From Aquipuribacter sp. SD81 (GTDB taxonomy: Bacteria > Actinomycetota > Actinomycetes > Actinomycetales > JBBAYJ01), in NCBI RefSeq assembly GCF_037153975.1, contig NZ_JBBAYJ010000017.1:1-64000 (forward strand): a stretch of DNA of 64,000 nucleotides. Reading direction: 5' to 3'. A model generated the notes under the pieces. That model was given only the letters and a program-made list of their open reading frames with translations. It had not been told where the DNA came from and did not search any database. This document shows, piece after piece, positions 13,422 to 58,635 of the stretch. A program made the translations under genes and the position numbers. Every line of letters starts with the position of its first letter. Positions within the stretch are counted from its first letter, which is position 1.

Positions 13422-13951
13422 CCAGGGGTCCTCGACGCCAGCTCCGTGAGCGCCTGCTCCTCGACCCGCACCCGGTGCCGCAGCAGCACGAGGTCGGCGA
13501 CGGTGAAGACGACCGCGGTGAGCCACGCCGAGTGCACGAGGGGCAGGGCGACGCCCTCCAGCACCACCGCCACGTAGTTCGGGTGCCGCAGCCACCGGTA
13601 CGGCCCGCCCGTGACGAGCGGCAGGCCCGGGACGACGACGACGCGGGTGTTCCACTGCGGGCCCAGCGTCGTGATGCACCACCAGCGCAGGGCGTGGGAG
13701 GCGACGAGCAGCGCGAGCGCCGACCAGCCGAGCACCGGCACGAACGGGCGGTCCAGCAGCCACACCTCCAGCGGCGCGCCCACGAGCAGCGCGACGTGCA
13801 GGGCCACCATGACCGGGTAGTGGCCGGCGCCGCGCTCGACCCCGCCGCGCTCCTGGGCCCAGCGCAGGTGGCGCGCCGCGACGGCGAGCTCCACGAGCCG
13901 CGCGACGACGACGGCGCCGACGAGGACGAGGAACCACCCCTGGCTGGTCAC
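13418..13951 (-). CDS. isoprenylcysteine carboxyl methyltransferase-family protein, SrsB-like
   Basis: A 177-aa polytopic membrane methyltransferase. Four to five hydrophobic segments precede the SAM-binding region GPYRWLRHPNYVAVVLEG, the hallmark of the ICMT/PEMT fold. In srs-type operons the enzyme O-methylates the phenolic ring made by the adjacent type III PKS. The GTG at 13951 is 10 bp after the stop of the PKS gene, and the 3' end overlaps the flavoprotein start by 4 bp, so the three genes form one translational unit. Confidence 0.88.
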   Translation of the reverse strand: MTSQGWFLVLVGAVVVARLVELAVAARHLRWAQERGGVERGAGHYPVMVALHVALLVGAPLEVWLLDRPFVPVLGWSALALLVASHALRWWCITTLGPQWNTRVVVVPGLPLVTGGPYRWLRHPNYVAVVLEGVALPLVHSAWLTAVVFTVADLVLLRHRVRVEEQALTELASRTPG

Positions 13952-54908: not shown

Positions 54909-55960
54909 GCACGACCACCAGCCCGGTGCCGAGCCCGTCGGGCACCGACCCCGCGACGGGCGGGCCGGGCACGAAGCTGCTCGAGGTCGACGACCTCGTC
55001 ATGAACTTCCCCGTCCGCGGCGGCGGGCTGCTGCGACGGACGGTCGGGCACGTGCAGGCCGTCAGCGGCGTGTCCTTCGCGGTCGACGCGGGGGAGACCC
55101 TCGGCATCGTCGGTGAGTCCGGCTGCGGCAAGTCGACGACGGGTCGCGCGGTGCTGCAGCTGCACACGCCCACGTCGGGCTCGGTGCGCTTCGAGGGCCG
55201 CGAGCTCACGACGATGTCGACCCGGCAGCTGCGCCCCGTGCGCAAGGACCTGCAGATCGTCTTCCAGGACCCGTACGCCTCGCTCAACCCGAAGCTCCCG
55301 GTCAACGACATCGTCGGGGAGCCGCTGAAGATCCACGGCGAGTGGGGTCGGCAGTCCGGCCCCGAGCGCGTCGCGGAGCTGCTCCGGCTCGTGGGCCTGA
55401 GCCCCGAGCACGGCAACCGCTACCCGCACGAGTTCTCCGGCGGGCAGCGCCAGCGCATCGGCATCGCCCGCGCGCTCGCGCTCGAGCCGAAGATGCTCGT
55501 GCTCGACGAGCCCGTCTCGGCCCTCGACGTGTCCGTCCAGGCCGGCGTCATCAACCTCCTGGAGGAGCTCCAGGAGCGGATGAACCTCGGCTACCTGTTC
55601 ATCGCGCACGACCTGTCGGTGGTCCGGCACATCTCCGACCGGGTCGCCGTCATGTACCTGGGCCGGATCGTCGAGGTCGCCGAGCGCGACCGGCTGTACG
55701 GCTACGGCAAGCACCCGTACACGCGTGCGCTGCTGTCGGCGGCGCCGGTGGCCGACCCGTCGCGGGAGCGCGGGCGCGAGCGCATCACGCTGACCGGCGA
55801 CGTGCCGAGCCCGCTCAACCCGCCGAGCGGGTGCCGGTTCCGGACGCGCTGCTGGAAGGCGCAGGACGTCTGCGCCACGGAGACCCCGCCGCTCGCGGAG
55901 GTCGCACCGGGGCACCGGGTGGCGTGCCACTTCCCCGAGGACGGGCCGACCGGGTTCTGA
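54905..55960 (+). CDS. oligopeptide-type ABC ATPase, DppF-like
   Basis: A 351-aa second ATPase of the importer. [53 protein letters not shown] and [12 protein letters not shown] are all intact, and the C-terminus carries the [15 protein letters not shown] cysteine set. Heterodimerises with the DppD-like protein. It ends the operon. Confidence 0.95.
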
Positions 55961-56185
55961 GGGCCGGCTCGATCGCTCGGGGGTGCGTCGGGCGCGCCTC
56001 GTAGGCGGGCTCGGGCGTCCTGGCGCGGCGTATCCTCTCGGCGTCCGCGCGTGCCGAGCCGGTGAAGGGTCAGCTGGGCGCGTGACCGATGTCCGGCAGG
56101 CGGCGGCTGCTCGGCGGCTCGGCGGCGTCGACGCATGCCACCGGAGCCATGGGCGGGTGCAGTTGGTGTGCCCGAATACCTTGCG

Positions 56186-56209
56186 TTCGAACACGTGTTC
56201 GAATAGTGT
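56186..56209 (+). promoter_or_regulatory. LexA (SOS) box abutting a leaderless -10
   Basis: TTCGAACACGTGTTCGAA (56186-56203) is an 18-bp perfect palindrome matching the actinobacterial LexA consensus TCGAAC-N4-GTTCGA. It directly abuts TAGTGT (56204-56209), a TANNNT -10 six bases before the ATG of the DUF222/HNH gene. LexA bound here would block RNA polymerase, predicting DNA-damage induction. Confidence 0.85.
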
Positions 56210-56215
56210 GTCTGC

Positions 56216-57619
56216 ATGGCGGCGTTGGTGGTGGAGGTCCCTCGCTGGGACCCGCTGCCGGTGCGCCTGGCGTCGGCGGGGGCCGCGTTGGACGGGCTGG
56301 TGGAGCAGATCGAGCACGTGCAGGCGGCTGGTGCGGGTGTGCCGCAGGTCGCCGCTCGGTTGCGTGAGGTGGACCGGTTGATCACGCGCTGGCAGGCGGT
56401 GCGCCTGGCGTTGGTGCGGGCCGCGGACACCGCCGACGTCGCGGGGTCCTCGGGTGCGTCGGGGACGTCGGCGTGGCTGGCGGGCCGCTCGAAGACGAGC
56501 GGCGCCGCGGCGGCCGCGGACGTGGCGCTGGCTCGGGACCTGGCGGAGTTCCTGCCCATGACCCGGCAGGCGATGAGTGAGGGGGACGTGCCGCGGGAGT
56601 CCGCGGCGGTGATCGCGCGGACGATGCGGGACCTGCCGCCGGGGTTGTCCGCGGACCGCCGTGCGGCGGTGGAACAACGGCTGGTCGCCCGGGCGCGGGA
56701 GGTGTCCCCGGCCGAGCTGCGGCGCCTGGCGGCGCGGGCGGTCGAGGCGGCGCGGCTGTCGGCGCGGGAGGTCGCCGCGCACGAGGACCGTGTGCAGCGC
56801 TCGGAGGAGGAACGCGCGCGGGCGAGGGCGCGGTTGTCGTGGCGGGACAACACCGACGGCACCACCGATGTGTGGGCGACCCTGCCGAGTGCCTCCGCGG
56901 CGGTGCTGGTGAAGGCGGTGCAGCAGATGACCGCACCCCGCCGCGCGCGCACCAGCGCCACGCACTCGCCGCAGCACGCGGCCCCTAATCACGCGGCCCC
57001 GCAGCACGCGGCCCCGCAGCACGCGGCGCCGCAGCAGGGGGCGCCGCAGCAGGGGGCGCCGCAGGAGGGAGCGGGAAGGCCGGTGACCGCGCAGGAGAGG
57101 GCGAACCAGCGGGGCCTGGCGTTCGCGGACCTGCTGGAGCACCTGCCGACCGACCGGCTGCACGGCAAGGTCGCCGCCACCGTCGTGGTCACGATGAGCC
57201 TCGCCCAGCTGCACGAGGCGACCGGGAACCTCGGCACCGCCCGCCTGGACACCGGCCACGCCGTCTCGGGCGGACAGGCCCGGCGCCTGGCGTGCGGGGC
57301 CGGGCTCGTACCGGCGGTCCTGGGTGGTGCCTCGCTGCCGCTGGACCTCGGCCGGGCCGGCCGGTTCTTCACCGAGGCCCACCGCACCGCCCTGGCCACC
57401 GTGTACGACACGTGCGCCGCCCGAGACTGCGACCGCCCCTACGCCTGGACCGAGCTGCACCACGAGGACCCCTGGTCCACCGGCGGCACCACCGACCTGG
57501 CGAAGGCCGTGCCCCTGTGCGGGCACCACCACCGCAGGGTCCACGACCCCACCTACCAGCACTCGATCACCACCGACCGCACCGGACGCAAACAGGTCAC
57601 CTACACCCGACGGACGTAG
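56216..57619 (+). CDS. DUF222 / HNH endonuclease domain protein (13E12-like)
   Basis: A 467-aa protein: DUF222 domain (residues ~20-240) with a Glu/Arg-rich helix, a low-complexity His/Gln/Ala/Pro linker (about 256-285, built on a 15-bp repeat), then the DUF222 tail and an HNH nuclease motif at the C-terminus (CDRPYAWTELHHEDPWSTGG...CGHHHRRVHDP). Homologous repeat proteins in mycobacteria are multicopy and SOS-regulated; here the LexA box shows the same control. No flanking mobile-element ends are visible. Confidence 0.9.
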   Translation: MAALVVEVPRWDPLPVRLASAGAALDGLVEQIEHVQAAGAGVPQVAARLREVDRLITRWQAVRLALVRAADTADVAGSSGASGTSAWLAGRSKTSGAAAAADVALARDLAEFLPMTRQAMSEGDVPRESAAVIARTMRDLPPGLSADRRAAVEQRLVARAREVSPAELRRLAARAVEAARLSAREVAAHEDRVQRSEEERARARARLSWRDNTDGTTDVWATLPSASAAVLVKAVQQMTAPRRARTSATHSPQHAAPNHAAPQHAAPQHAAPQQGAPQQGAPQEGAGRPVTAQERANQRGLAFADLLEHLPTDRLHGKVAATVVVTMSLAQLHEATGNLGTARLDTGHAVSGGQARRLACGAGLVPAVLGGASLPLDLGRAGRFFTEAHRTALATVYDTCAARDCDRPYAWTELHHEDPWSTGGTTDLAKAVPLCGHHHRRVHDPTYQHSITTDRTGRKQVTYTRRT

Positions 57620-57704
57620 ACCGAGCGGGGTGCAGGGCCGGCGGAGCGCGCCGAGCGTGCGACGCCGAGTGGGCGACGAGGTGAGCGGGCCGCCGGGGGA
57701 GCAG

Positions 57705-57768
57705 TGCCGTGGCGTCGCGGTGCCGTGGCGTCGCGGTGCCGTGGCGTCACGGTGCCGTGGCGTCGCGG
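57705..57768. repeat. 16-bp tandem repeat (4 copies)
   Basis: Four copies of TGCCGTGGCGTC(G/A)CGG, followed by a partial copy, in the 176-bp gap between the convergent HNH and VIT1-like genes. Confidence 0.9.
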
Positions 57769-57795
57769 CGTCGCGCTGCTGGCGTGACGTGGGGG

Positions 57796-58635
57796 CTACA
57801 GCGCGCCGCCGACCTGGGAGCCGACGACGAAGGTGAGGAGCATGGCGAGCAGGCCGACGCCGACGTTGCGCAGGACGGGCCGCACCACGGGCGCGCCGCC
57901 GAGCCGGGCGCTCAGGAAGCCGGTGATGGTGAGCGCGACCACGACGGCGGCGACGGTGACCGGCACCCGCGCACCGGGGGAGGGCAGCACGATGGCGAGC
58001 AGCGGCAGCAGCGCACCGACGGCGAAGGACACGAGCGACGCGAGTGCGGCCTGCCACGGGCTGACGAGCGCCTCGGCGTCGATGCCGAGCTCGATCTCGG
58101 CGTGCGCACGGAGGGCGTCGTGAGCCGTCAGCTCGACCGCGACCTGCTGGGCGGTCTCGTCGCTCAGGCCCTTGTCCCGGTAGAAGCCCGCGAGCTCGGC
58201 GAGCTCCTCGTCCGGTGTCTCGCGCAGCTCGCGGGCCTCCTTGGCCAGCAGCGCACGCTCGGTGTCGCGCTGCGTGCTCACCGACACGTACTCGCCGCCC
58301 GCCATCGACAGCGCGCCCGCGACGAGCGCGGCGACGCCCGCGACGAGCAGCGTGGGCCGGTCGGTCGTCGCCGCCGCGACCCCGACGACGAGCCCGGCGG
58401 TCGAGACGATGCCGTCGTTCGCGCCCAGCACACCGGCCCGCAGCCAGTTCAGCTTCGCGTTCACCTGGGCGAGGCTCGTCTCCTCCGCGTGCAGCGTCGC
58501 CGCGGCGCCGGCGGGGGTCGCGCCGACCGCCGACGTACCGCCGGCCGGGGCCGCGTCGGGCGGGGTCCCGCCTGCCGGGGTCGCGCCGGTCGGACTCGCC
58601 GCCTCGGAGCTGCTCGCGGGCCGGTCGCCGCTCAT
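57796..58635 (-). CDS. VIT1/CCC1-family divalent metal transporter
   Basis: A 279-aa membrane protein. After a ~55-residue Ala/Pro/Thr-rich N-terminus comes NWLRAGVLGANDGIVSTAGLVVGV and MAGGEYVSVSTQRDTERALLAKE, hallmarks of VIT1/CCC1 Fe2+/Mn2+ exporters with the acidic cytosolic metal-binding segment, then three more helices. It probably exports iron or manganese from the cytosol. ATG overlaps the stop of the upstream PCD-VOC gene. Confidence 0.9.
   Translation of the reverse strand: MSGDRPASSSEAASPTGATPAGGTPPDAAPAGGTSAVGATPAGAAATLHAEETSLAQVNAKLNWLRAGVLGANDGIVSTAGLVVGVAAATTDRPTLLVAGVAALVAGALSMAGGEYVSVSTQRDTERALLAKEARELRETPDEELAELAGFYRDKGLSDETAQQVAVELTAHDALRAHAEIELGIDAEALVSPWQAALASLVSFAVGALLPLLAIVLPSPGARVPVTVAAVVVALTITGFLSARLGGAPVVRPVLRNVGVGLLAMLLTFVVGSQVGGAL

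Follow-up and report, generated by a model that had tools for sequence, protein, structure and literature searches.

Setting, and predicted operator and promoter, of a DUF222-HNH gene

The sequence analysed here, referred to as the window, is a 64-kb stretch of the genome of Aquipuribacter sp. SD81 (G000; 3.86 Mb in 69 contigs), which was compared with G001 and G002, the only congeners included. It carries on its forward strand an ORF of 467 amino acids (56216-57619; ATG at 56216, TAG at 57617-57619) encoding a DUF222-HNH protein. Ahead of this ORF lies TTCGAACACGTGTTCGAA (56186-56203), an 18-bp perfect palindrome equal to its own reverse complement, and the 16-bp core within it, TCGAACACGTGTTCGA, is the SOS box TCGAAC-N4-GTTCGA given for M. 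tuberculosis in PMC4181829. The 12 fixed bases of that box occur at one site in the window and in none of 100 dinucleotide-preserving shuffles. The palindrome, a predicted LexA operator, fills the spacer of a putative promoter: to its left is the -35-like hexamer TTGCGT (56180-56185, forward strand), and to its right it abuts the -10 hexamer TAGTGT (56204-56209, forward strand), which follows the 16-bp core by 1 bp. Since TTGCGT stands exactly 17 bp from TAGTGT, the operator amounts to the whole spacer between -35 and -10, and this perfect SOS palindrome is so placed as to block the promoter, as would be expected of a member of the SOS regulon. The three other copies of the window subfamily with a readable promoter have TTGTGT-17-TAGTGT, compared with TTGCGT in the window.

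Six bases, GTCTGC, separate TAGTGT from the ATG, so that a leaderless mRNA is predicted, with transcription starting, to judge from the spacing, at or next to the start codon. The sequence-only reading had described a palindrome abutting TAGTGT six bases from the ATG of a DUF222/HNH gene, and every element of that description proved to be in place.

The gene lies in the interval between the stop codons of its neighbours (55961-57795), which are, as named by eye, a gene for an oligopeptide-type ABC ATPase, whose end is at 55960, and, convergent to it, a membrane-protein gene that ends at 57796. No partner gene adjoins it on its own strand. Just downstream of it, tandem 16-bp repeats of GTGCCGTGGCGTCGCG (57704-57792) occupy a part of the interval that is absent from G002.

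The predicted protein

The DUF222 match (PF02720, E 3.9e-15, model positions 4-302 of 306) covers residues 49-393 (56360-57394, forward strand) and includes a hypervariable low-complexity linker (56945-57085, forward strand), in which 15-nt repeats coding for PQHAA or PQQGA cannot be aligned between copies. The HNH region follows (57413-57547, forward strand), reading C400-x4-C405 ... H415 H416 ... TDLAKAVPLC-GHHH-RRVH443, with Lys at the canonical Asn position. Against the Pfam HNH model the protein scores 18.2 bits (E 0.0028), short of the cut-off of 21.4. In a 14-member alignment C400, C405, H415, H416, C435, H439 and H443 are invariant. At the Asn position, most members do have Asn, the three window-subfamily copies of full length have Lys and a Rhodococcus relative has Arg; in some other intact members Arg, Asp, Ala or Gln was read there by eye. 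Since the His and Cys residues are invariant and the Asn position variable, nuclease activity of the window protein is plausible. The earlier designation as an HNH nuclease is weaker than it was put, for although the histidines and cysteines are kept, Lys stands in the place of the usual HNH Asn.

No credible relative was found among solved structures, and a predicted structure (input: the window protein plus the L049 fragment) had a mean pLDDT of 46.5, too poor to use. The search for the closest related loci gave one partial locus, in a Rhodococcus MAG. The protein had no match in PADLOC, which speaks against a recognised defence system, and in searches against phage-protein and defence families nothing but generic HNH was matched.

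The window subfamily: copies and sites

Full-length copies are present in the window and at C2:37878 and C6:38171; those on C43 and C41 are truncated where their contigs stop. Homology between copies extends from the -35 hexamer, its left edge, to the stop codon and no further. Between copies the 36-bp promoter shows 89-100% identity, and the 100 bp upstream of it score 0.52-0.66, compared with shuffle means of 0.51-0.55 and maxima of 0.57-0.69 (six pairs). A single pair of the six, C2-C6, slightly exceeds its shuffled maximum (0.59 against 0.57), and the 100 bp downstream also score near shuffled sequence. At a dS between copies of 0.12-0.20, flanks duplicated together with the gene ought not to have faded beyond recognition, so that either flanks were not carried along or conversion has kept old copies alike. 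Conversion is favoured by the mosaic structure of the copies: across the four N-terminal parts, 53 informative sites fall into 8 runs, 28.9 being expected and none of 20000 shuffles giving so few, N-terminal stretches pairing the window copy with C2 and later stretches pairing it with C6. When the linker and an N-terminal loop are set aside, dN/dS amounts to 0.19-0.28 (6 pairs), with 0.05-0.28 in the HNH part and 0.19-0.52 over the whole shared ORF; judged by these ratios, the copies stay under purifying selection.

The sites of these genes are empty in the congeners in all five comparisons that were possible. The interval corresponding to 55961-57795 measures 6 bp in G002, while in G001 it is about 242 bp long, the gene being absent from both; the C2 site is empty in G001 and G002, and the C6 site in G002. 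On a simple reading the copies were gained in the lineage of the window genome, although loss would also be compatible. The difference at the window site exceeds the shared unit by about 220 bp on the left and 175 bp on the right, and a clean insertion is for that reason not demonstrated; neither a target site nor terminal repeats nor a target duplication was found for the unit. A tRNA-Gly gene lies near the C6 copy, and no tRNA was found in the window.

Conventional vehicles were considered and set aside. A transposon or insertion sequence would be expected to show itself otherwise, as no repeat pair brackets the unit and no transposase is among the Pfam matches of the ORF. A phage or plasmid origin fares no better, the window protein being matched in 0 of 50,697 phage records and, partially, in 1 of 72,556 plasmid records; a relative, L075, is matched in 8 phage and 6 plasmid records, all partially.

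Putative LexA sites across the genome

Perfect SOS sites number 8 in G000, compared with none for the reversed pattern and 0.03 expected from the composition of the window, and 29 sites have at most one mismatch, compared with 2 for the control pattern. The operator core recurs, with one mismatch each, at recA (C19:29164, L032) and lexA (C19:53654, L033), whose products were recognised by reading their sequences rather than by family search; G000 thus encodes a LexA protein beside its own boxes. Further pairs of LexA box and DUF222 gene, for which the sequence-only reading had proposed searching the genome, are abundant: perfect boxes stand just upstream of a DUF222 gene in 7 of 8 cases in G000, 5 of 5 in G002 and 1 of 3 in G001, or 13 of 16 in total. 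LexA control of the window gene, anticipated from the palindrome, is borne out in silico by this association and by the shared core at recA and lexA; we regard it as highly probable, and as certain as sequence alone allows.

Two other loci with such boxes were observed. At C14:13713-13744 (L017, G000), tandem boxes at 13713 and 13729, with 0 and 1 mismatch, precede genes that by eye resemble an imuA/imuB/dnaE2 mutasome locus. A LexA box also precedes an unnamed ORF in two congeners (L029 2124, C11:63123; and L091, G001 C130:1098), and the start regions of the two are alike; this is probably a conserved SOS gene.

Predicted damage-responsive promoters in the DUF222 family

The family is multi-copy in this genus: PF02720 is matched 13 times in G000, in about 12 genes, 6 times in G001 and 8 times in G002. 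For a survey of promoters, a first set of 48 DUF222 loci was assembled, 22 being from the genus and the other 26 from the rest of the order (15 genomes). The order-wide search gave 44 rows, 30 with a locus and 14 without; two of the latter, from G002, are covered by other loci, and the remaining 12 stand outside the promoter counts, except G003:C1:2138371, entered later as L162. Dropped before the count of 48 were L009 and L085, second pieces of counted genes, and L011, L082 and L083, whose upstream sequence runs off the contig. A second set of 21 loci came from a phylum-wide draw of 60 genomes, 10 of which matched at E <= 1e-25, with 4 of the 25 rows already counted. The resulting 69 loci, from 26 actinobacterial genomes, are best-scoring matches and include paralogs (11 from G062 alone), and are consequently neither random nor independent. 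In the order, 12 of 29 genomes had no match at E <= 1e-20.

A LexA box with at most one mismatch precedes 21 of the 48 loci (15 perfect), where 60 permuted half-sites gave 0.02 on average, and 11 of the 21 loci of the second set, against 0.00 for the permuted control. A second signal is the motif of PafBC, printed in PMC8151990 as TGTCGG-N10-TA-N3-T. Searched as TGTCRG-N10-TAnnnT, it precedes 15 of the 48 loci, with none for 60 permuted motifs and none on the reverse strand, and 8 of the 21 (the permuted control covering the first 48 loci only). Over all 69 loci the LexA box is found at 32 and the PafBC-type motif at 23, with either at 44, both at 11 and neither at 25. The PafBC-type motif occurs neither before the window gene nor anywhere else in the 64-kb window. 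A candidate regulator is encoded in G000, where a fused two-WYL PafB-PafC ORF (L176 3824-6040; C3:144323-146539) with a PafC HTH domain (PF19187, 6.3e-39) lies between pafA (TIGR03686, 1e-227) and tatA.

The operators fall into two layouts. In Class I, that of the window, the box is followed after 1 bp by TAnnnT; it accounts for 10 of the 69 loci, in three genomes (G000, G002 and G014); by spacing, half of these are leaderless, namely all four copies of the window subfamily and a single locus of G014, and the other five are not. In Class II, a start codon in frame lies inside the operator itself, so that operator, likely transcription start and translation start would all fall within 16 bp. 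This layout is seen at 14 of 69 loci, one of them with a less certain TTG: L003, L004, L007, L013, L084, L087, L118 and 7 of the 11 loci of G062 (L150, L163, L164, L165, L167, L169 and L170). In the six genus loci that were read, the codon begins at box position 9 and the protein starts V/M-F-[D/E], coded by the right half-site. An exact upstream PafBC motif accompanies 8 of the 14, its -10 overlapping or adjoining the left edge of the operator. Across both sets, 24 of 69 loci have a start codon 6-7 bases downstream of a -10. Judged from these motifs, damage-responsive wiring is a recurrent trait of the DUF222 family, reached through two regulators and two operator layouts.

Two G000 loci, L031 (C12:114527) and L034 (C22:73344), are 91% identical and combine a PafBC motif with a start codon inside a one-mismatch LexA box. 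Their ORFs run off the contig at about 115 codons and have no meaningful Pfam match; they are possibly further DUF222 genes, and were left out of all counts because the cut ORFs could not be assigned to the family.

Relation to known systems

Davis et al. (2002) are said to have described seven LexA-regulated 13E12-type genes in M. tuberculosis, and Smollett et al. (2012) is reportedly a further related paper. The sequence-only reading had likewise stated that mycobacterial 13E12 genes are SOS regulated, and this agrees with PMC4181829, PMC5005354 and PMC8151990, which describe LexA-regulated 13E12/HNH genes in M. tuberculosis. The first lists 28 putative LexA genes, including 13E12-family HNH genes for which a hypothetical role in mismatch repair is raised, and the third counts five putative HNH endonucleases among RecA-dependent genes. 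The 13E12 genes are described as mobile-element-like (PMC4181829, PMC5005354), and frequent gene conversion is reported between REP13E12 loci (PMC13061034); further related literature includes PMC10589994 and PMC6789036. Given these published LexA-controlled genes, the regulation of the window gene is of a known kind. What is new here is the survey, the operator layouts, the link to PafBC, and the data on the shared unit, its mosaicism and its empty sites. In a literature search mostly outside subscription journals, neither layout was found described as a trait of the DUF222 family, and no paper was found joining 13E12 and PafBC.

The window subfamily resembles the REP13E12 genes in being a multi-copy chromosomal set of DUF222/HNH genes with the same SOS-box sequence and conversion between copies. 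It differs in genus, in the 25-34% identity of the window protein to the more general DUF222 proteins aligned, and in traits of its own: the spacer operator, the separate -10 and the predicted leaderless ATG, read on the window side only, and the change of Asn to Lys. Elsewhere in the family, the TGTCGG motif or its TGTCAG variant before 23 of 69 loci and the fused PafBC-type protein beside PafA in G000 recall the mycobacterial PafBC (RecA-NDp) regulon, unlike the window gene itself, which lacks the motif. Free-standing HNH homing endonuclease genes offer another likeness, being stand-alone ORFs at scattered sites, present or absent in relatives, with mosaic copies; unlike them, the genes considered here are chromosomal rather than carried by phage, intron or intein, have host damage regulators, and have yielded no cleavage site. 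MSMEG_1275 (PMC9416677) is similarly an actinobacterial HNH DNase linked to DNA damage, but has an ArsR-type regulator and keeps the Asn.

Interpretation and alternatives

The window gene is probably a damage-induced, chromosomal, multi-copy HNH nuclease gene that spreads or is homogenised by recombination. Our preferred explanation, to which we give a probability of roughly 0.4, is that of a LexA-repressed, probably leaderless DUF222-HNH gene, belonging to a chromosomal, lineage-expanded multi-copy family and working as a damage-timed, homing-like selfish nuclease gene. In the undamaged cell, LexA bound to the palindrome between -35 and -10 would exclude RNA polymerase, and RecA-triggered cleavage of LexA would release a burst of DUF222-HNH protein. 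We infer that the protein might then nick or cut DNA while RecA is abundant, that the break could be repaired by recombination with another copy, and that such repair might homogenise, and occasionally multiply, a unit made up of -35, LexA box, -10 and ORF. It is the coincidence of damage-timed cutting with recombinational repair that would make the gene homing-like. Some DNA-cleaving activity in the DUF222-HNH family is rather probable, and is less so in the window copy on account of its Lys. That recombination-driven spread is the reason for the persistence of the gene is a tentative proposition, with odds a little short of even. For the selfish element suggested by the sequence-only reading there are lineage-specific copies, a promoter-plus-ORF unit, mosaic paralogs and empty congener sites, all of them indirect indications.

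Points against the homing-like explanation bear on the same observations: the mosaicism may reflect ordinary gene conversion of old duplicates, unaided by the protein, and absence in the congeners could be loss. There are, moreover, almost no relatives on phages or plasmids, unlike classical selfish genes. This chromosomal confinement suits the main rival, a host DNA-repair nuclease in which DUF222-HNH proteins process damaged or mismatched DNA alongside other SOS genes. Two independent damage switches on the family (LexA and PafBC-type), an operator shared with recA and lexA, purifying selection on each copy and the mismatch-repair role hypothesised for 13E12 genes in PMC4181829 all speak for it. 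We nonetheless think it somewhat unlikely: congeners lack the window-subfamily copies at the corresponding sites, copy numbers vary between genomes, the order includes those 12 genomes without a match, whereas an enzyme central to repair should vary less, and the linker is hypervariable. A nuclease that degrades the cell's own DNA upon damage, in programmed death or an abortive response to phage, is improbable, although over-expression of MSMEG_1275 in M. smegmatis leads to cleavage of chromosomal DNA and to death of the cells (PMC9416677) and the tight double control in relatives would suit a dangerous product. Only one of five HNH proteins tested in that study was lethal, and it is not stated there that MSMEG_1275 is a DUF222 protein; the absence of a same-strand partner and of any defence-family match, together with the Lys of the window subfamily, also count against self-killing.

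The same Lys, the Arg of the Rhodococcus relative and the weak HNH score would fit a relic gene, decayed or catalytically inactive, that retains its promoter and is maintained by gene conversion, or a protein that only binds DNA. Full ORFs, the low dN/dS of the core and HNH part, the invariant histidines and cysteines, and the variation of the Asn in other intact members make this more improbable still. Binding of the palindrome by another regulator, or by the DUF222 protein itself, would accommodate the concentration of perfect sites before DUF222 genes (7 of 8); since recA, lexA and the imuA/imuB/dnaE2-like locus of G000 share the core, and its sequence is the published M. tuberculosis SOS box, we consider this very remote. 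We accordingly continue to prefer the homing-like selfish nuclease, a tentative preference in which a host repair nuclease is the chief competitor.

Extended to the phylum, the homing-like explanation becomes rather doubtful, though it would give the family a definition. DUF222-HNH genes across Actinomycetota might form a chromosomal selfish-nuclease family recognisable by its wiring, namely leaderless promoters in which a LexA operator either takes the place of the -35/-10 spacer or includes the start codon, in many cases with a PafBC promoter in addition, the copies (promoter plus ORF) being spread and homogenised by damage-induced gene conversion. Such wiring would make production of the nuclease coincide with maximal capacity for recombination.

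The function of 13E12/DUF222 genes in M. tuberculosis, and the reason why LexA controls so many of them, is a long-standing question, which the present comparison makes testable in harmless relatives with concrete predictions. If the homing-like explanation is true, the SOS response would also drive recombination at a dozen sites in the organism's own genome.
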